A stretch of DNA of 37,869 nt from a virus, in the IMG/VR virus record IMGVR_UViG_3300032011_000041, positions 1 through 37,869 of that record. The stretch is one strand, 5' to 3'. Made by a program: the position numbers and the translations under genes. Below the pieces are notes generated by a model. The model saw only the letters and a program-made list of their open reading frames with translations, was not told the DNA's origin and made no database searches. Each line of letters begins with the position of its first letter. Position 1 is the first letter of the stretch. Shown one piece after another: positions 1,385 to 21,990 of this stretch.

Positions 1385-1430
1385 AGTGGGTGGGGATAGT
1401 GAGTCCCCCCTTACCCCCCACCCACTTTTT
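1385..1430 (+). terminator. Rho-independent terminator after the DUF932-like gene
   Basis: An 11-base-pair perfect stem joins 1385-1395 (AGTGGGTGGGG) to 1416-1426 (CCCCACCCACT), followed directly by a run of five T at 1426-1430. It lies 37 bases past the stop codon. It should separate the first early transcript from the RuvC-helicase operon. Confidence 0.9.
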
Positions 1431-1431
1431 C

Positions 1432-1820
1432 GCCCCGAAGATTCAGGGTAGTCACCAGTTGACGTAAATCCTAGAGCTGAGGGGTTTAGGAAAGGCCATT
1501 CCTTTACAACAACCTGAGCTGGGTACTCATAAAAATACCCATAAGATCGCTTATATGCACGGTAGAGTCAGCGATACAGGTCTTTGGACATGTCGAGATG
1601 CTGTTGACCTTTGACCGCCCTCTGTATTATAAGGAAACAATAGGGGAATGTAATAAAGGACGGATTGATCATCCACTGTGGAGGGTGAAAGCCTAGCGGT
1701 TAGTAGCGGCCTATTCAGAAAATTGTTAACAGGTTTTCTGGCGAATATGTCCCACCAGATCCCAGAGCCTTTGAATAAAGGATTCAGGGAGGTGTCCCCT
1801 GTTGTTTCGTGTATTCGCTA
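1432..1820 (+). ncRNA. Candidate structured RNA or structured leader of unknown class
   Basis: This stretch has no credible reading frame but many local helices, found by eye: 1491-1495/1501-1505 (AAAGG/CCTTT), 1520-1525/1536-1541 (TGGGTA/TACCCA), 1546-1551/1570-1575 (ATCGCT/AGCGAT), 1578-1582/1606-1610 (AGGTC/GACCT), a CCG..CC plus TATTAT arm at 1615-1630 pairing with 1650-1663, 1716-1722/1734-1740 (CAGAAAA/TTTTCTG), and a closed 3' domain 1741-1747/1812-1818 (GCGAATA/TATTCGC) that encloses CACC/GGTG, TCCC/GGGA and CCTTT/AAAGG. The 3' domain ends 14 bases before the RuvC start codon. It could be an independent RNA begun after the terminator, or a long regulated leader. Short stretches recall RNase P conserved regions (GGAAAG near 1489, GGTGAAAG near 1684), but the P4 partner is not found. 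Strand is inferred from the neighbours. Confidence 0.45.
1604..1630 (+). promoter_or_regulatory. Possible sigma70-type promoter inside the structured gap
   Basis: TTGACC at 1604-1609 and TATTAT at 1625-1630 each match the sigma70 consensus at five of six positions, but the spacer is only 15 bases. If real, it would start the RuvC-helicase transcript near 1637 and leave a leader of about 195 bases. The same bases also take part in a plausible RNA helix, so the two readings compete. Confidence 0.25.
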
Positions 1821-1832
1821 TAGCATAGATGT

Positions 1833-10512: not shown

Positions 10513-13500
10513 CTATTGTCTTAAAGCGTTTACAGCGTTAGCCATTAAACTACTTGGAGGTGGTGCTCCTCCTATGCCTGCTCCCCCCTCAGGAAAACTG
10601 TACTCTGGCTGGCCCCCTGCCATTCCTGCTTGGACTGCTTGCCACGCATTAATGTCGTTCATTGATACTTGAGCTTCGGTCCTTGGATCTAAAGCTCTTG
10701 GTACTTTAGGCGCTAAAGGAAGACCTAATCTATCTAATTGAGATTGACTAAATGGTTTTGTGCCATACCATATGAAATGCTCTACATCGCTAGGCGCTAC
10801 TTGCACACCTAGCATTGCGCATATCAACATAAACTCTGCTACATCTTCGGCAACTCTTGCTCGTAATGTAGCTAACTCTTCAACGGTGAGGCTTTTATCA
10901 AAGTCAAAAATGTCATTAGGAAGCCCCAGTTGCAGACGTTTAGCTTTTGAATAACCGTCAAGGTAGTTCATCAACGCAACGTTTGGGTCCATGTTAACTT
11001 CCATAGCGTCGTTCATGTACCTTACTATTTCAGGGAGTGGTGGCCTTACCGCTTTTGCTTCTTGAGGTGTAAGCCCTGCCATTTCGACCATTAAATTAAA
11101 CCATGTTTCTGCCCTAGCTATGTTAACTTCAGCACGTTCCTCTGCTAAGAATTGATTCTCAGTAAAAGGCTGTATTCCTATAGCACGGTACTCTTCATTC
11201 GTTAACCCTCCAGCAGTACCCATAGCTATCATTAACCGCTCTTCTTTATCTAACCTAAATGATCCTTTTCTAGATTCAGGTAAAGACTCATTAACCATGT
11301 TTTCCACTAATTCTATTTGAACACGCACATCATCTAAGTGTTCTTCTGCTGTTTTATCTGGCCTGTTTGTAGCTTCAAACGGTATACCCTTGCTCTCTAA
11401 GTAGTCTCTAGTAGCAGCATTCGCCAGATCTTCTTTCGCAGCTTGAGTGTCTTTCGCAAACAACAACGTAGATACCCACCTGTCAGCCTCAGCATAGACA
11501 CCCTCCTCTCGGAGTTCCGTCATCGTAGGAAGATCCATGTCTTCTTTCTTCCAATCAGCTCGCAGCTTATCGTACTGCGCTCTCTTTGAAGCTATCAAAC
11601 GAAGTTGTTGTTCTTCATTCAAGCTATAAGTGGACCCACCAAAAAAGAAGTTAAGTGTTCTAAGTTTAAGCATGTCTTTGTCAGTGAACGCTTCTTCCAT
11701 TTGTTGATGATTAGGGACAAGCTGTAAAGGATCTTTACCAGTCCATTTAGCAACTTCACGCACAGCTTTAGGCAGCGCTGGCATAGCTGTACCTATCAGG
11801 TGGACAAGCCTATTGCCTACATCTGTGTGCATTGGAGCTTTACTGAACATGCTTTTGCCCATCATTAGTTCAACAGCAGTAGTAATACCTGATTGTGGGC
11901 CGCTAGAAAACAATCCTAATCCACCTCTAACCCTGTCAGGCAAGTTAGGTACATTAATGCTGTCAGGCATTAATGGCTTTATTGTAGTAAATGGAGTTAA
12001 CCAAGCTACTTTTTCTACAGTTTCCATTGCGCTCAGCAAAGGAGTTTCAAATCTAGCCATAACCATGTCGTTAGGGCTAAACAAATAACCTGTATCTTGC
12101 GCCCAATCTGGAAGGAATTTACCTTCAAAATCTTCTTGGAATCCAAACAATTCTTTTTGTAGATGGACTACCAATTTCTGCATAGCTAAAACACTGCCGG
12201 GAGTTGATGTTAATATTCGTGCTTGTAGAGCTGTGTTCTTACGCATCCAAGTATAGAAACGACTATAGTTCTTGAACTTTAATTCTGTGTGGGTTAGATC
12301 TGTGTAATCAAATAAGTATTGGTGGACTCTGCTTAACGCATCGCTAGGGTCCATTCCTTTTTGTATGCCGTCAATGTAAAGAGCCATACGTGAACTATCT
12401 TCGATTGTTCTACCAATAAATTTACCTGATTTGGTAGCCCAGTTATTTAAATACTTATTTGATAAACGTTTGTTATTGAAATCAAATATGCCTGTTGAAT
12501 AATCTAGATCTTGGAAGAACCCTGCGGACACGACTCCCCTCTCATGCATGTCAACCAGCATTCTTGCATCTTCATACGTAGGCTTATAGTTTGCGCTCGC
12601 TTTACCAGCTATCCCATAGGATCTAGCAGCATCAGGATCTCTTACTAAATCCATGATGGCATCTTCATAATCGAAAAGCCCTCTATTAGACATATGTTTT
12701 TTAGTAACATGATTAAGCCACTGGTACTTCATCGCATCTTTCATCCTTAAAGGATTAATCCCAGCTAAAGCACTATTAAAGATGTTGCCTATGGCGTTTC
12801 TTGCATGGAATGCAAAACCTACAAGTGGGACAGTAGCATATGTAGCCCAGCCTGTACTGAACGTATTCATTGTTTTAGCAAAACCATTTCCTAAATGCTC
12901 TCCCCTCATAGGCTTTAATATGTTTTCTGTAAGTTCGTGGTGGATATCTTTATGCACCAGCCTGTACCCATCAGCAAACTCAAGAACAAGGTAATCTCCA
13001 TCGTGTATTGTTTTAGCAATACCTTGCATGTAGCTTTCAAGGGTTTGATCAGCATCACTCATAGCAGCAAATTTTGTTTCTCCGGTTACAGGGTCAGCGT
13101 ATTCAAATTCGAAACGCTGTGTTTGCACTTTGATAGGTTCACCTACATAAGTTTCACCTGCATCACCCATCTGAACCTCTACATTTGCAGTCTCCTTTTT
13201 TGTTCTTTGGTTGACAGTTCCCTTAATGACAGAATCCCTGTCACTATACATGCCCTCTCCTAAGCTCCAATCATTAACTCGAAGTTCTTCTAAGTCATTT
13301 AACACGTCGTACATTAAACGTCTTTCATGGCTTTGATTGCTGTAACGTATCCAAGCGTCAACAGGATCAACGTCATAGAATTTTGTTACCACAAAATCTT
13401 GGAGAAACTCAGGGTCCTCTGCACTTTTTACGTGACTAGCTATGCTATTAAGAACATCGTTTATTACATCGTTAACTTCATTAATGTTTTTAGTGTTAGG

Positions 13501-16500
13501 CAAGAAAGATCTAGCGTTGAGATGCCCTGCTCTTGTTAAAGCAGATTGCATATTTTTAGCTGCCATAGCTGGAGTCAAGACACTTGGGCTAAGGCTTCCG
13601 TTAGTTGCGTCCATCTTTAAAGACTTCAAAAGGTTCGGGAAAGCTTCAACCATTTCTTCTATTTCATCGGCAGCTAACCCATGTTCTTTACCTACTTTTC
13701 TAATGTGACTAGCAACTTCATCAGGGCTTTCAATTATCTGATGGTAAAAATCACGGACATCTTGCCCAGCTTCGCCACTGAATATCTTCTCAAATTTACT
13801 TAACGTTTCATCTGACACGACTCTAGGTGTGTACGTTGAAGGATCTATCTTACCTTCTCTCATAGCAGTTATTAGATCTTCAGCGATATTAAGTTCATCT
13901 GTAGAGTAAGCATCTAGCTGCTCTACAAATCTCTGCATATCTCCAATTAGTTCATCACTGTACCCTGTAGCGTTTTGCACCTCTTCCCAAATAGCAACAC
14001 GGCCATAAATCTCTGAAAAGTTTTCATTAGGCGTTACTCTTTCTGTGATGGGATCTGTTATAGTTTCAAACTTTCTGCCTACATCAAATGTTTCTTTAGG
14101 AGGAACAGTAGATTTTTTATTGTATATATTGGGCATTGACACTTGAAGGGCTTCATCTGACGCTTTGAGGTTTATGCCCACAGAACGAACAGTAGTAATG
14201 ATATTCATAAACTGTTCTCTAGCTTTTTTCTTACCTTCCTTGCCTTTAAAGAGACCGTCAGGAGATTCTTTCATTATCTTTTCAGCTACAAAATCAGGAG
14301 CTTCACTTAAAACCTTTATCCTCATTTCATGCTCAGCTCTAGCAGAAGCTTTCCTAGCACTAGCTTGACCACGCATCCACTCTCGACTGATCTTTCCATT
14401 TTTACCAGCCAACGCTATGTAAGGTCTAAACTTTTCTAACCTTTTATTAGTAGCCCTTAACGGACTTAAGAAAGGTTTAGCAACTACATTAGCGGCTTTA
14501 TCTACAATGCTCTTACCAAGTACCGCTTCTTCGTATACGTCAACTGTCGTGCCGCCAAAAAGCTCCTCGACAGAAAGAGGCCGAACGCCTCTAGTATTTC
14601 TTACTTCAGTAAGAGGATTTCTAGCAGCTCTTGCTCTTCCTCTTAATTTAGCTGGAGACGATTCAATTAGTTCCTCTCCATACTTAGCTTCAGTTAACAT
14701 GTCTACAAGAGCTTTACCAGTATCAGTTCCGCCTTTTTTAGCAGCATGTAAGACATCTATTACTGTGTCTAAGTTATCTCTAAACAAGTCATAAGCAACT
14801 TCATCGCTTATTCTCCCTCCGAGAACAGCATCCCCTGTCAAGGCATCCATACCGACTCTATTACCAACAACACTCTCGGCAGTTTCCTGAGGCAGCCAGC
14901 TTCCTTCCCATCCTAAAGGAACATAGCTACCTACATCATCTGGCCCGAAACCTCCAACCGTATACCTAGCTGTTCCTCCTCCTTTTTCGCCCCAGACAAC
15001 GTTTCCTGAATTCCACATTTGAAGGCTCTCAGCGTCAAAAGCATCTGAGTTACGGCCTTTCCAGTCTTCAAACTTTTTAGCTCTTGCAACTAAAGAAACC
15101 CAATCTTCAGTGCCTTCTTCAGCTACGGCTCTTTCAGCATTCGACAATCTATTGGCTCTCCAAATCGACCCATCAGGACTTAGCTCATCCGTTGTAAGGT
15201 ACGCCCACTTTGGGCCCTTAGCTGTAGCTACACCTTTTTCAGTCTTGACACCATGCTCAACTCCATACCATTTGTTTTCTTTTTGGGCAGCGATAAGACG
15301 GTTGCGGTAAGCTTTAACTCCTTTAGGGTCAAGCAACCCCATGCCTAACATTTCTTGGAAGTACATGTTTTCTACGTAGGCGTCAATCTGTGCTTCCCTA
15401 ACAGCTTCATCTCCACCCTGCGGCATTCCAGTAGGACGACGACGGCCGGGCACCTCATCAGTGCCCATAATATCATCCTTATATTCTTGCCATGCTTTAG
15501 TTCTTTTATCTAACCTATTGCCCTTTGTAATTTCGACGTAAGGAGGAGTGTCTCGCAATTCTCTTTGTAAATCATTTTGCTCAATTTGAAGCCGCTCAGC
15601 TACATCACCGTCTCCCTTATCTAAAGCTTTTTGTTTACGACGGCCAATTTCTTTTATGTCGTCTTCAAGTTTCTCACGAATTTTATTTCTTTTAGAGCCA
15701 AGCCTTTCAGGTATTTCCTGTGGCTTAGTTCGATTCGTCATCGAACCAAAATTTTGCCTAGCTTCTTCTAACGGGACAGGTTGACCGTCAGGATAAAAAT
15801 TATCGAACTGTAAATTAAAAGCTGGCCCATTATTATGAAGTTCAGGCTTGTCATATTTTTTGATCCACGTAAGACCCCGTTCATCAACAAAAGTATTCCC
15901 CTTACCTATTTCATAATCCATAATGAAAACAGGCGTAGCTAAATCATCAAAATCCCTAAGATCGGGCATTGTTGCTCGCTCCAACAAAGTCAGTTGATCA
16001 ATATACTTCTCAATGCCTCGCTGTATATACAAGCCTTGATTCACATACTCTTGGTTAATTCCATGAAGCGCTTCAATCTTTTCATCTATAACATTAAGCT
16101 CTCGGTTAATCTGATCAAGTTCTGCCTGATCAGCAGCCTTTGAAGCTTGCTCAACTAAATCCCCAGACTTATTAATTAAGTTTAAAATCTCGTCATCGTT
16201 ATCTTTAATCTCTTTAAACAAAGCTGCCTGAAGTTCATCTGCAGTTTTTCCAGCAGGAGGAGCTAGCCCAACAGGATTATCCAACCATTGATCAATAGAT
16301 TGAGCTTGCTTACTCTTATCAATAACTTTAGTTCCTGCGAGAACAGGATCTGCACTCGCAGCTTCCTCCAGCAAATCATTTACTAACTTGTCAAGCCTCT
16401 CAGCTTCATCAATCCTTCCTGCCGTATGCGCTTCATCAGCTTGAGCTTTAAGATCTTCAATCGGGGATTTTCTAGGCGCATCTGCCCTAGCAAGAGTATC

Positions 16501-18651
16501 TTCAATATCTCGCTGAATTCTCTTTTGAGTCCGCCTATTACGAACTTTCGTATACCTATTAAAGCTAGCATTACCTTTCTTAACGACTGTTCGCTTAAGA
16601 TAACCTGCATCACTTAAAATCTCTAAAACTCTTTGAGCCTGATCTTCAGTCAACTCTCCAGCTAAATTCTCTGCAGCGTCAGCCCCTTCTTTAGAATGAG
16701 GGTGCAGACGGTCATGCCCACCTAATGTTTGACCCGCATCACCTTCTTTTGTCCTAGCGTAACCTTTAGTCCCAGCGTCATCATAACCATGATCAGCACG
16801 GTTCCTCCACAGACGTTGAATCGTTTCAACATCTACAGTGTCAGAACCTTCCCTCTGTAAAATGTCAGCAGCAAAACCAGCCATATGCGTTTCCTCAAGC
16901 AACTCATCAATACTTGAAACACCTTTAACTTGCCTTCCAAAAACTTGAGTTAAAACACGAGTGCCTCTAAAAAACTTAGACGCTGATACAGTCAAACCAT
17001 TACGTTTAAAGACCTGATACAAACTACGGCTTCCGGGCATGTACGCAACTTTTCTTCCTGCGCCAAAACCAAAACCACCACCTAAACGACGATCTATAAG
17101 TTCCATGTTCTTTTTAATACGTCTTGCAGATTTGCCAACAGCTTCTTCAGCTAGATTAAGATCCCCCATCTCATCGCCAAGTTGCTTAATCTTCTCATTA
17201 ACTCTTTTAACATAAGGGTTTTCATCACCAAATCTTTTTGTTAATTTCGCTGACTTTTGTTGAAGAGCAGCTTGCTTACCAAGCTTGCTAGTATACGGCG
17301 CTCGCTTAAACGCCATCTCCAAAAGATCATCAGCAGCACCCTGCGGCAAACGAACATTATATTGTCTCCAAAACAACTCGTCCATATCGCCAACGAATTT
17401 CTTCCAAGGAATTCTATTTTCTAAAGCGTTCCTTGTCCCTTTCAAAACAAACTCTAATTGTTCAGGCGCAAGCTTAGAAGCAACACCTTTATACCCAAGA
17501 TCATTTAAAGATTTTTTAGCCCCAACTCGAAGCATGTCATCAATGGCAGCACCGCCAACCTTTATAGCCTGCTTGCCTGCACCACCAGCACCCATCGTTG
17601 CCCAACTCAAAGGATCAGTAACTACTTCACCTGTAAAGTCAACAATGTTACCAACACTAAAATGCTGAAGGAAAGGTAACGGAATTTTCCAATCGTTTGC
17701 CCAATCCTGATCTATCCCAAACGCTTCTCTAAAACCTATACGACCATCTGCATCAATATCGTATTTACTGGTATCGCTTTGATGGTCCTCTAACCAATTC
17801 TCAAAACCTTTCAAAGGTTCAACTTGGCCATAGGTAAACATTTGCACAGGCAACTGCGCCATATCAAGGCCAAATTCAAAAAGGCGATTACCTAAACTTC
17901 CCCAATTACCATCACGAACATCTAATACCATTCCATATATGGCTTGTTGGGGAGCTAAGATCTTATCAAAAGCCCAACCTAACATACTCATAAAAGCATT
18001 AGGCGTAGGCGGAGCTTCATACAAATCATCAAAGCTTGTCTTATAATTCGTTTGAACCCCTATAAGGTCCTTGAAAGGTTCATAATCTTTGAACGTATGT
18101 AGTATGTGTTGCCCATACAAAACAATTTCTTCATCCTCTGACTCGACCCACGTCATAGCCATACTTGCTATGTCACGAAGATTTTGAATATCTCCCGGCT
18201 TAACTGAAATTTGTTGTAAGTTGTCTAGGTTCTCTTTGAGGATCTTGTTACGGTTTTCGTAATAGATTTCTTGGTCGTCTTCAGAAATAGTTCTGGCTTC
18301 AAGAATGGGGTCCCAAAATGAATTTCTGCGTTTAGCACCTGAAGCGCTTCCTTGGTTGCCGCCAAAGTTTTGAATGATTTGTTGAACCTGAGAGTTGTCT
18401 TCACTGTAATTAACTGAACGAGGTTTACTGTAGTTTTGAAAAAGTAAATCTTGAGCTTCTGCAGATTGAGCGTATCTAGCAAGCTCTTCGTCAGTAAGGT
18501 CTTTAAGTTCAGGTAAGTCTTCGTAAAAAATTTGGCTTATGGGAAGGTTGTAGTTGGTTCGCCCATCTTCAGTGACTCCACCTACGTTAGAGCGAGTTAC
18601 TCCACCTGCCAGTATTTTTCCTGCAAGGTTTCCTAGCGGATTTGCTGACAT
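10513..18651 (-). CDS. Giant 2712-residue virion or polyvalent-type protein
   Basis: At 8139 bases this gene takes over a fifth of the window. A likely coiled-coil stretch lies at about residues 797-897 and a Lys/Arg-rich helical part near 700. Around 1940 is a hydrophobic segment (TVPLVGFAFHARNAIGNIFN), followed at about 2110-2160 by 'YLFDYTDLTHTELKFKNYSR' and 'FYTWMRKNTALQARIL', a block I recall from large polyvalent or internal-virion proteins of phages. The C-terminus is Gly/Pro-rich. No lysozyme, protease, polymerase or kinase motif was recognised. It is the last late gene, after the tail genes, where T7-like phages keep internal virion proteins injected with DNA; this role is inference. 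The first 150 or so codons and the middle differ in third-base use. Confidence 0.8.
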   Translation of the reverse strand: MSANPLGNLAGKILAGGVTRSNVGGVTEDGRTNYNLPISQIFYEDLPELKDLTDEELARYAQSAEAQDLLFQNYSKPRSVNYSEDNSQVQQIIQNFGGNQGSASGAKRRNSFWDPILEARTISEDDQEIYYENRNKILKENLDNLQQISVKPGDIQNLRDIASMAMTWVESEDEEIVLYGQHILHTFKDYEPFKDLIGVQTNYKTSFDDLYEAPPTPNAFMSMLGWAFDKILAPQQAIYGMVLDVRDGNWGSLGNRLFEFGLDMAQLPVQMFTYGQVEPLKGFENWLEDHQSDTSKYDIDADGRIGFREAFGIDQDWANDWKIPLPFLQHFSVGNIVDFTGEVVTDPLSWATMGAGGAGKQAIKVGGAAIDDMLRVGAKKSLNDLGYKGVASKLAPEQLEFVLKGTRNALENRIPWKKFVGDMDELFWRQYNVRLPQGAADDLLEMAFKRAPYTSKLGKQAALQQKSAKLTKRFGDENPYVKRVNEKIKQLGDEMGDLNLAEEAVGKSARRIKKNMELIDRRLGGGFGFGAGRKVAYMPGSRSLYQVFKRNGLTVSASKFFRGTRVLTQVFGRQVKGVSSIDELLEETHMAGFAADILQREGSDTVDVETIQRLWRNRADHGYDDAGTKGYARTKEGDAGQTLGGHDRLHPHSKEGADAAENLAGELTEDQAQRVLEILSDAGYLKRTVVKKGNASFNRYTKVRNRRTQKRIQRDIEDTLARADAPRKSPIEDLKAQADEAHTAGRIDEAERLDKLVNDLLEEAASADPVLAGTKVIDKSKQAQSIDQWLDNPVGLAPPAGKTADELQAALFKEIKDNDDEILNLINKSGDLVEQASKAADQAELDQINRELNVIDEKIEALHGINQEYVNQGLYIQRGIEKYIDQLTLLERATMPDLRDFDDLATPVFIMDYEIGKGNTFVDERGLTWIKKYDKPELHNNGPAFNLQFDNFYPDGQPVPLEEARQNFGSMTNRTKPQEIPERLGSKRNKIREKLEDDIKEIGRRKQKALDKGDGDVAERLQIEQNDLQRELRDTPPYVEITKGNRLDKRTKAWQEYKDDIMGTDEVPGRRRPTGMPQGGDEAVREAQIDAYVENMYFQEMLGMGLLDPKGVKAYRNRLIAAQKENKWYGVEHGVKTEKGVATAKGPKWAYLTTDELSPDGSIWRANRLSNAERAVAEEGTEDWVSLVARAKKFEDWKGRNSDAFDAESLQMWNSGNVVWGEKGGGTARYTVGGFGPDDVGSYVPLGWEGSWLPQETAESVVGNRVGMDALTGDAVLGGRISDEVAYDLFRDNLDTVIDVLHAAKKGGTDTGKALVDMLTEAKYGEELIESSPAKLRGRARAARNPLTEVRNTRGVRPLSVEELFGGTTVDVYEEAVLGKSIVDKAANVVAKPFLSPLRATNKRLEKFRPYIALAGKNGKISREWMRGQASARKASARAEHEMRIKVLSEAPDFVAEKIMKESPDGLFKGKEGKKKAREQFMNIITTVRSVGINLKASDEALQVSMPNIYNKKSTVPPKETFDVGRKFETITDPITERVTPNENFSEIYGRVAIWEEVQNATGYSDELIGDMQRFVEQLDAYSTDELNIAEDLITAMREGKIDPSTYTPRVVSDETLSKFEKIFSGEAGQDVRDFYHQIIESPDEVASHIRKVGKEHGLAADEIEEMVEAFPNLLKSLKMDATNGSLSPSVLTPAMAAKNMQSALTRAGHLNARSFLPNTKNINEVNDVINDVLNSIASHVKSAEDPEFLQDFVVTKFYDVDPVDAWIRYSNQSHERRLMYDVLNDLEELRVNDWSLGEGMYSDRDSVIKGTVNQRTKKETANVEVQMGDAGETYVGEPIKVQTQRFEFEYADPVTGETKFAAMSDADQTLESYMQGIAKTIHDGDYLVLEFADGYRLVHKDIHHELTENILKPMRGEHLGNGFAKTMNTFSTGWATYATVPLVGFAFHARNAIGNIFNSALAGINPLRMKDAMKYQWLNHVTKKHMSNRGLFDYEDAIMDLVRDPDAARSYGIAGKASANYKPTYEDARMLVDMHERGVVSAGFFQDLDYSTGIFDFNNKRLSNKYLNNWATKSGKFIGRTIEDSSRMALYIDGIQKGMDPSDALSRVHQYLFDYTDLTHTELKFKNYSRFYTWMRKNTALQARILTSTPGSVLAMQKLVVHLQKELFGFQEDFEGKFLPDWAQDTGYLFSPNDMVMARFETPLLSAMETVEKVAWLTPFTTIKPLMPDSINVPNLPDRVRGGLGLFSSGPQSGITTAVELMMGKSMFSKAPMHTDVGNRLVHLIGTAMPALPKAVREVAKWTGKDPLQLVPNHQQMEEAFTDKDMLKLRTLNFFFGGSTYSLNEEQQLRLIASKRAQYDKLRADWKKEDMDLPTMTELREEGVYAEADRWVSTLLFAKDTQAAKEDLANAATRDYLESKGIPFEATNRPDKTAEEHLDDVRVQIELVENMVNESLPESRKGSFRLDKEERLMIAMGTAGGLTNEEYRAIGIQPFTENQFLAEERAEVNIARAETWFNLMVEMAGLTPQEAKAVRPPLPEIVRYMNDAMEVNMDPNVALMNYLDGYSKAKRLQLGLPNDIFDFDKSLTVEELATLRARVAEDVAEFMLICAMLGVQVAPSDVEHFIWYGTKPFSQSQLDRLGLPLAPKVPRALDPRTEAQVSMNDINAWQAVQAGMAGGQPEYSFPEGGAGIGGAPPPSSLMANAVNALRQ

Positions 18652-21564: not shown

Positions 21565-21573
21565 ACAGCCACT

Positions 21574-21708
21574 TTACTCCTCTTCTTCCTCTCTGTCACC
21601 AACAATCTTCTCAAGTTTCTGAATCTGTAAATTCTGAATACATATCGTAAGTTCTTTATTGTACGTCTTACCCATTTCTTCAACTAACTCTTCTAATGTA
21701 ATATCCAT
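21574..21708 (-). CDS. Small acidic hypothetical protein (44 residues)
   Basis: A short frame fills the gap between the 87-residue gene and the LysM gene. It reads MDITLEELVEEMGKTYNKEL and continues to an acidic end (REEEEE), with TAA at 21574. ATG 21708 is preceded by AAAGGAT at good spacing, which supports it as real. The protein is helical and may form a coiled coil; no family is recognised. Confidence 0.6.
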   Translation of the reverse strand: MDITLEELVEEMGKTYNKELTICIQNLQIQKLEKIVGDREEEEE

Positions 21709-21717
21709 TATTATCCT

Positions 21718-21981
21718 TTACTCTGGATCTAGTGCTTCATCTTGCCTTTGTTTAGCTGTCTTAACAACAGCGTTATTGACAACTGTGTTCTTATCTGCAG
21801 GAATAGTAGAAACATCATCATCATCTGTCATGCGTATAACCTCTGCATCGTACAAACGATCTATAGTTTGACGGCATTTATTCTTAACAACGTTTTCAAC
21901 CCACCCTTCAGGGTCAACAGTGTCCCATGCAAATGCTTTTTCTTCAGCGTCAGTGATTGTTACTGTAAATGTTTTAGCCAT
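21718..21981 (-). CDS. Conserved small phage protein of unknown function
   Basis: An 87-residue protein with 'TFTVTITDAEEKAFAWDTVD' and 'GWVENVVKNKCRQTIDRLYD'. I recall similar small proteins near tail genes in aquatic phages, but their role is not known to me. The acidic middle (TDDDDVS) and the Lys/Gln-rich tail are hydrophilic. It follows the fibre gene after nine bases and could be a fibre-assembly helper; that is inference. Confidence 0.7.
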   Translation of the reverse strand: MAKTFTVTITDAEEKAFAWDTVDPEGWVENVVKNKCRQTIDRLYDAEVIRMTDDDDVSTIPADKNTVVNNAVVKTAKQRQDEALDPE

Positions 21982-21990
21982 AAGTACCTC

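Follow-up and report, generated by a model that had tools for sequence, protein, structure and literature searches.

A modular structured RNA at a single intergenic locus in a clade of phages

Organization of the locus

The stretch of DNA analysed here (the window) is the 37,869-bp IMG/VR virus record IMGVR_UViG_3300032011_000041. Replication genes occupy the + strand up to ~10.5 kb, and the structural genes lie on the - strand. The host is probably an actinobacterium, since the major capsid protein is similar to those of Arthrobacter, Microbacterium and Cellulosimicrobium phages. One - strand ORF of 2712 aa (10513-18651) takes up one fifth of the genome and has no Pfam or PHROG match.

On the + strand, a gap of 484 nt separates a phrog_1362 gene from a gene encoding a putative RuvC-like resolvase, and contains a terminator-like hairpin followed by a block of 390 nt (1431-1820; Table 1). 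The product of the phrog_1362 gene has no match in Pfam and NCBIfam searches, and its profile finds none in GTDB genomes. The downstream protein is 30% identical to a Streptomyces phage 'RuvC-like resolvase' and has no Pfam family above the cut-off; PDB profile searches with both flanking proteins gave no significant match. As its structure prediction is only partly confident and its PDB matches are not significant, leaving the fold unconfirmed, the RuvC label stays putative. Another long gap, of ~426 nt (21565-21990), lies on the - strand side, where the sole ORF on that strand encodes 87 aa and has no PHROG match.

The initial annotation had described the block as free of genes, preceded by a terminator and followed by a start codon that lacks a clear ribosome site, and all three statements hold. 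The longest ORF starting inside the block encodes 54 aa and none is conserved as coding, the upstream hairpin is strong by local-window folding, and the start codon at 1833 has no Shine-Dalgarno sequence. A small ORF (1678-1842), open in four genomes to the end of the 3′ domain described below, was rejected as coding, the differences within it avoiding the third codon position and following the stems; this test was confined to the shared open frame.

Table 1. Coordinates of features at the locus, with the evidence or remarks for each.
Feature	Position	Strand	Evidence or remark
Upstream gene, phrog_1362, 385 aa	191..1348	+	PHROG E 4.8e-41
Terminator-like hairpin and T run, between upstream gene and RNA block	~1386..1430	+	local fold z -5.75
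Module A, 5′ part of RNA	1431..1546	+	core 1485-1546 common to L070 and L071
Linker and 5′ lead of module C	1547..1633	+	holds invariant GGACATGTC (alignment A4)
Module C, closed multi-branch 3′ domain, RNA core	1634..1808	+	z-scores, covariation, model R1
P1 5′ strand, 14-bp closing helix	1634..1647	+	pairs with 1795-1808; 100% of cells paired; 2 pairs double-changed
P2	1658-1661/1749-1752	+	encloses P3, P4-P5 and P6
P3 hairpin, self-complementary loop TGATCA (L069: TAATTA)	1662..1674	+	candidate homodimer kissing loop
P6 hairpin, self-complementary loop TGTTAACA (L068, L069: TGTACA)	1716..1740	+	candidate homodimer kissing loop
P7/P8, second arm	1753..1794	+	5 double-changed pairs in P8
P1 3′ strand	1795..1808	+	pairs with 1634-1647
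TAGCAT, -10-like TANNNT box	1821..1826	+	ends exactly 6 nt before RuvC-like start codon
Downstream gene, putative RuvC-like resolvase, 159 aa	1833..2312	+	phrog_1981 E 1e-10

Related loci

DNA searches with the block of the window found no match among 50,697 phage and 72,556 plasmid records, and searches of the phage records with the blocks of three relatives likewise returned none. The first relative met was one near-identical contig. Alignment of the major capsid protein yielded 51 related loci; for 48 of these, the complete record was searched with the DNA of the block. Five records carry the same locus, each with a phrog_1362 gene before it (59-63% amino-acid identity) and a RuvC-like gene after it (63-70%). 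Six distinct blocks are compared here: that of the window and those of records 3300030099_003858 (L067), 3300030090_002860 (L068), 3300017733_000030 (L069), 3300009593_000037 (L070) and 3300030376_005830 (L071). The L067 and L069 block types are repeated in two further records.

The L071 block spans the contig ends, and the two flanks of its intergenic stretch were joined with an assumed 6-nt overlap. Because the RNA locus of this record (L071/L108), classed as linear, is split over two contig ends, 3300030376_005830 effectively represents a genome that is circular or circularly permuted. Hairpins comparable to the terminator-like hairpin of the window were read by eye upstream of the blocks of L068-L071, and none is obvious in L067. 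Base composition also changes abruptly in the window at ~780, inside the phrog_1362 gene (AT skew of +0.24 before and -0.31 after), and L067 and L068 are T-rich throughout, which suggests a recombination joint; composition within the RNA block is close to balanced.

The sample comprises six distinct locus sequences, four of them with the 3′ domain named module C, all from one phage clade. Matches to the module patterns in viral contigs were confined to the same clade. Two pattern matches in GTDB genomes (Aquificales and Bacillus) were set aside because neither is matched by the RNA model. That model, R1, finds module C once in the window (195.6 bits) and, run over 42 phage records, retrieved only the known loci; small high-scoring pieces proved to be lone hairpins resembling P1 and were discarded.

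A conserved fold in the 3′ domain

The block had been described as structured, with local helices along its length. Folded as a whole, the region 1425-1835 has a minimum free energy z of only -1.4, and 150-nt windows across the block are at chance, so that single-sequence energy alone would leave the claim open. Stability above chance is unevenly spread, and the description stands for module C, whose z values are -4.0 in the window, -6.0 in L067, -4.4 in L068 and -4.15 in L069; in each case, none of 200 shuffles folded as well. On the - strand the same domain is 7 to 16 kcal/mol less stable than on the + strand. For whole blocks, the z values are -3.0, -4.4 and -6.8 on the + strand of L067, L068 and L069 (-0.8, -2.0 and -2.0 on the - strand), and only -1.7 and -1.3 for L070 and L071.

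Compensatory changes, the evidence anticipated from related contigs, are present in this 3′ domain. When the structure is taken from L067 alone and counted on the alignment of module C, 93.4% of cells are paired, and 11 of the 58 pairs (15 cells) are changed on both sides. None of 500 shuffles reaches the covariation score, and slid structures drop to 34-53% paired. The changes include G-C to A-U and U-A to C-G in P1 and GGAT/ATCC to GGGT/ACCC in the stem of P3, and the apical stem of P8 in L069 has TATC/GATA and a GTCGCA loop in place of CCTTT/AAAGG. P4 and the inner part of P6 are kept only in part across the relatives. The helix that the initial annotation had drawn as closing the domain, GCGAATA/TATTCGC (1741-1747 with 1812-1818), does not withstand the comparison: 77% of its cells are paired, it has no compensatory change and it is mismatched in relatives. 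The actual closing helix is P1.

Among the pairs of module C, 20 cells are G-U and 2 are A-C, an imbalance that places the RNA on the + strand. This bias bears on the proposal that the conserved object is DNA which the RuvC-like resolvase recognises, be it a cruciform, an origin of replication or a site of recombination. Palindromic stretches are present, a putative junction resolvase adjoins and the modules recombine; however, the symmetry of DNA predicts neither the excess of G-U over A-C nor the better folding of the + strand, and we regard a DNA element as very unlikely. With compensatory changes above controls and no coding signal, module C belongs to the structured noncoding RNAs, and it is well supported as a genuine structured RNA fold. 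Covariation and stability above chance are thus both found in the 3′ domain, and no conserved protein is, whereas the stability of the 5′ half is at chance.

In the window, module A combines extreme conservation with a stability not above that of shuffles, and the linker region is at chance in local folding. The core of module A is 94% (L070) and 92% (L071) identical, compared with 64-70% in the flanking genes, and its hairpin GGGTA/TACCC becomes GGGCA/TGCCC in L070, the one clear compensatory change. The case for the 5′ half consists of sequence conservation and this hairpin change. In module B, carried by relatives, 7 of 45 pairs are changed on both sides, as counted with a structure derived from the same alignment.

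Modules exchanged at one locus

The intergenic stretch measures 444-772 nt across the six genomes. All-against-all comparison resolves it into about five modules, A-E, whose combinations differ among genomes. Module A is carried by the window, L070 and L071; B by L067, L068 and L069 and in part by L070; C by the window, L067, L068 and L069; D by L068 and L071 and, shortened (d), by L069; and E by L070 only. The resulting orders are A-C in the window, B-C in L067, B-D-C in L068, B-d-C in L069, A-B-E in L070 and A-D in L071. The 3′ domain is thereby exchanged too, for E in L070 and D in L071. Each module occurs once per genome and at this locus only in the records searched.

Identity within modules is 76-95% (mostly 83-95%), compared with mostly 64-77% in the flanking genes. 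Module A is 94% identical between the window and L070, whose two flanking genes are 65% and 70% identical; module D is 94% identical between L068 and L071 (65% and 67% in the flanking genes), and module B 95% identical between L067 and L068 (69% and 77%). The opposite case is that of L068 and L069, in which the flanking genes are 96% and 93% identical and the 3′ RNA parts only 85%. Such a pattern is consistent with strongly constrained RNA modules that recombine. The folded RNA is real, previously uncatalogued and built of interchangeable modules swapped at one locus. Structured RNAs do not usually have their domains shuffled at one locus, and the natural chimeras reveal which modules are separable.

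The mosaic and its insertion-like variation might also be expected if a self-splicing intron or some other mobile RNA element had left its remnants here. However, models of group I and group II introns do not match, the block sits between genes rather than within one, and it is present in a single copy at a single locus, so that an intron remnant appears extremely improbable.

Start of the downstream gene

The initial annotation had left open whether the block is a phage non-coding RNA or a large regulatory leader. As a cis-acting leader, a riboswitch or attenuator, it would control the RuvC-like gene, and indeed the two are always direct neighbours on one strand, with the block first, and a weak terminator-like site is present at 1785-1801. 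At the 3′ edge of the block, however, a TANNNT box stands at an identical spacing of 6 nt from the start codon in all six genomes (TAGCAT, TAATAT in three genomes, TACAAT and TACAGT). The base rate of such a box at 6 nt before start codons of the window is 59/3,773 (1.6%), and the six cases, which are not independent, represent at least three distinct 3′ modules. TANNNT is the common -10 motif of mycobacterial promoters; in M. tuberculosis, 73% of primary start sites have it, and leaderless mRNAs are abundant in mycobacteria (PMC3898074).

The mRNA of the RuvC-like gene is thus apparently leaderless, with its promoter located after the RNA. Purine-rich ribosome sites precede many other genes of the same phage, and the missing one is best explained by leaderless transcription from this box. 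Because the downstream gene seems to possess its own -10 box, the RNA is probably not its leader. The wholesale module swaps, including that of the 3′ domain for E in L070 and D in L071, are moreover unlike a regulator built around one conserved sensor. We therefore consider a leader unlikely.

Alternatively, the block could belong to the phrog_1362 mRNA as its 3′ untranslated region, serving as a stability or processing element. It begins less than 100 nt after the phrog_1362 gene in most genomes, no promoter was recognised for the RNA itself, and its 5′ stem starts immediately after the hairpin and T run. Against this, a terminator-like hairpin lies between gene and block in five of the six genomes, and known 3′ stabilisers are far smaller and less ornate than this RNA. 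An untranslated region accordingly seems quite improbable.

The reading as a phage non-coding RNA is backed by covariation, a strand-specific fold, conservation exceeding that of the flanking genes and lack of coding signal. We think it rather likely that the block encodes an autonomous + strand structured non-coding RNA of ~390 nt, neither a protein nor a leader of the RuvC-like gene. That it forms a separate transcript is probable.

Comparison with known RNAs

Comparison with RNA families, proposed initially for RNase P, GOLLD, ROOL, group I introns and riboswitches, gave no family match in Rfam. The block yielded nothing at gathering score and only one chance miRNA match at E <= 10; the five relatives yielded only chance matches at E <= 1. 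No Rfam model of group I or group II introns, RNase P, tmRNA or riboswitches matched the block or its relatives, and the window has no tRNA or tmRNA. Neither the covariance model for GOLLD (RF02032), which represents its conserved 3′ region, nor that for ROOL (RF03087) matched any of the six genomes at E <= 10; the control genomes were likewise without ROOL.

In manner, nonetheless, the block resembles GOLLD and ROOL, being large, phage-borne and ornate, with variable regions. GOLLD is a large ornate RNA of phages and prophages from aquatic sources, with a conserved 3′ region and a less conserved 5′ region, and it forms a 14-mer nanocage held together partly by symmetric kissing loops; ROOL is a large structured RNA of phages and prophages that self-assembles (PMC12286853). 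The present RNA differs from GOLLD in that it is shorter, that the window has no tRNA nearby (GOLLD is often near tRNA genes) and that the 3′ domain is swapped as well.

A further likeness is to HEARO, the omega RNA of IscB and IsrB, as a structured RNA upstream of a gene for a RuvC-containing protein. By analogy, the RuvC-like protein could bind the RNA as its guide or scaffold, for which the position of a structured RNA directly upstream of the gene speaks, the gene order being the same in HEARO-IscB arrangements. However, Rfam gives no HEARO match, and the neighbour is a bare RuvC-like domain of 155-159 aa (159 aa in the window), not recognised as IscB or IsrB. A RuvC-like homologue in a further relative (G019) has no RNA block before its gene; since, in addition, the RuvC-like fold is unconfirmed, a guide function is disfavoured and appears highly improbable.

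The phi29 packaging RNA is a phage RNA of ~170 nt that multimerises through loops. It is named among natural RNA multimers (PMC12286853). The block differs in that it does not lie beside terminase genes, has no Rfam match and shares no recognised architecture with it.

Proposed mode of action

The autonomous RNA would be transcribed by read-through past the upstream terminator-like hairpin or by initiation near it, with or without processing. Two points count against this reading: no promoter was recognised for the RNA, and the preceding hairpin is expected to lower read-through into the block. We infer its release as a separate molecule from the leaderless promoter that the downstream gene seems to own. 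Once folded, it may act in trans during infection, in the manner of GOLLD and ROOL.

Two of the four hairpin loops of module C, those of P3 and P6, are self-complementary over at least 6 nt in four genomes and remain so through sequence change; a palindrome of at least 6 nt occurs in 4.7% of loops in shuffled folds. In the P3 loop, the two changed bases are too close to pair within one molecule. For OLE and GOLLD, palindrome switching of this kind was taken as support for symmetric kissing loops between molecules (PMC12286853). We hypothesize that copies of the RNA pair through the P3 and P6 loops, associating into a homodimer or a higher assembly, a proposal that draws on few events in two short loops. 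The variable 5′ modules could then be exchangeable peripheral domains that set partners or resistance to host factors.

A bolder proposal is that the RNA represents a new class of self-assembling phage RNA, a homo-oligomer held by P3/P6 kissing loops whose domains are shuffled like protein modules while the assembly core is kept. We put this forward tentatively and rather doubt it. If true, GOLLD and ROOL would be joined by another independent phage lineage of RNA-only complexes. The 2025 cryo-EM study of GOLLD, ROOL and OLE names as an open question whether large natural RNAs commonly self-assemble into cages (PMC12286853). The RNA described here is an independent case from phages, with loops that switch palindromes and a compact core of 175 nt that can be made in vitro, which renders the question of self-assembly directly testable.

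Several smaller observations concern recurrent elements and gene neighbourhood. A pairing element, UUC-A-GGG with CC(U)-A-GAG, is present in modules A and C with the order of its strands exchanged (1441-1480 and 1760-1790), and the hairpin loop GUCGCA caps covarying stems both in module B and in module C (hairpins of L069 and L067); both are possible recurrent tertiary or protein-binding motifs. In the distant Gordonia phage VanLee (L012), a phrog_1362-like gene has genes for a Ro-like RNA-binding protein and a RuvC-like protein nearby, a neighbourhood that hints at RNA biology around the phrog_1362-like gene.
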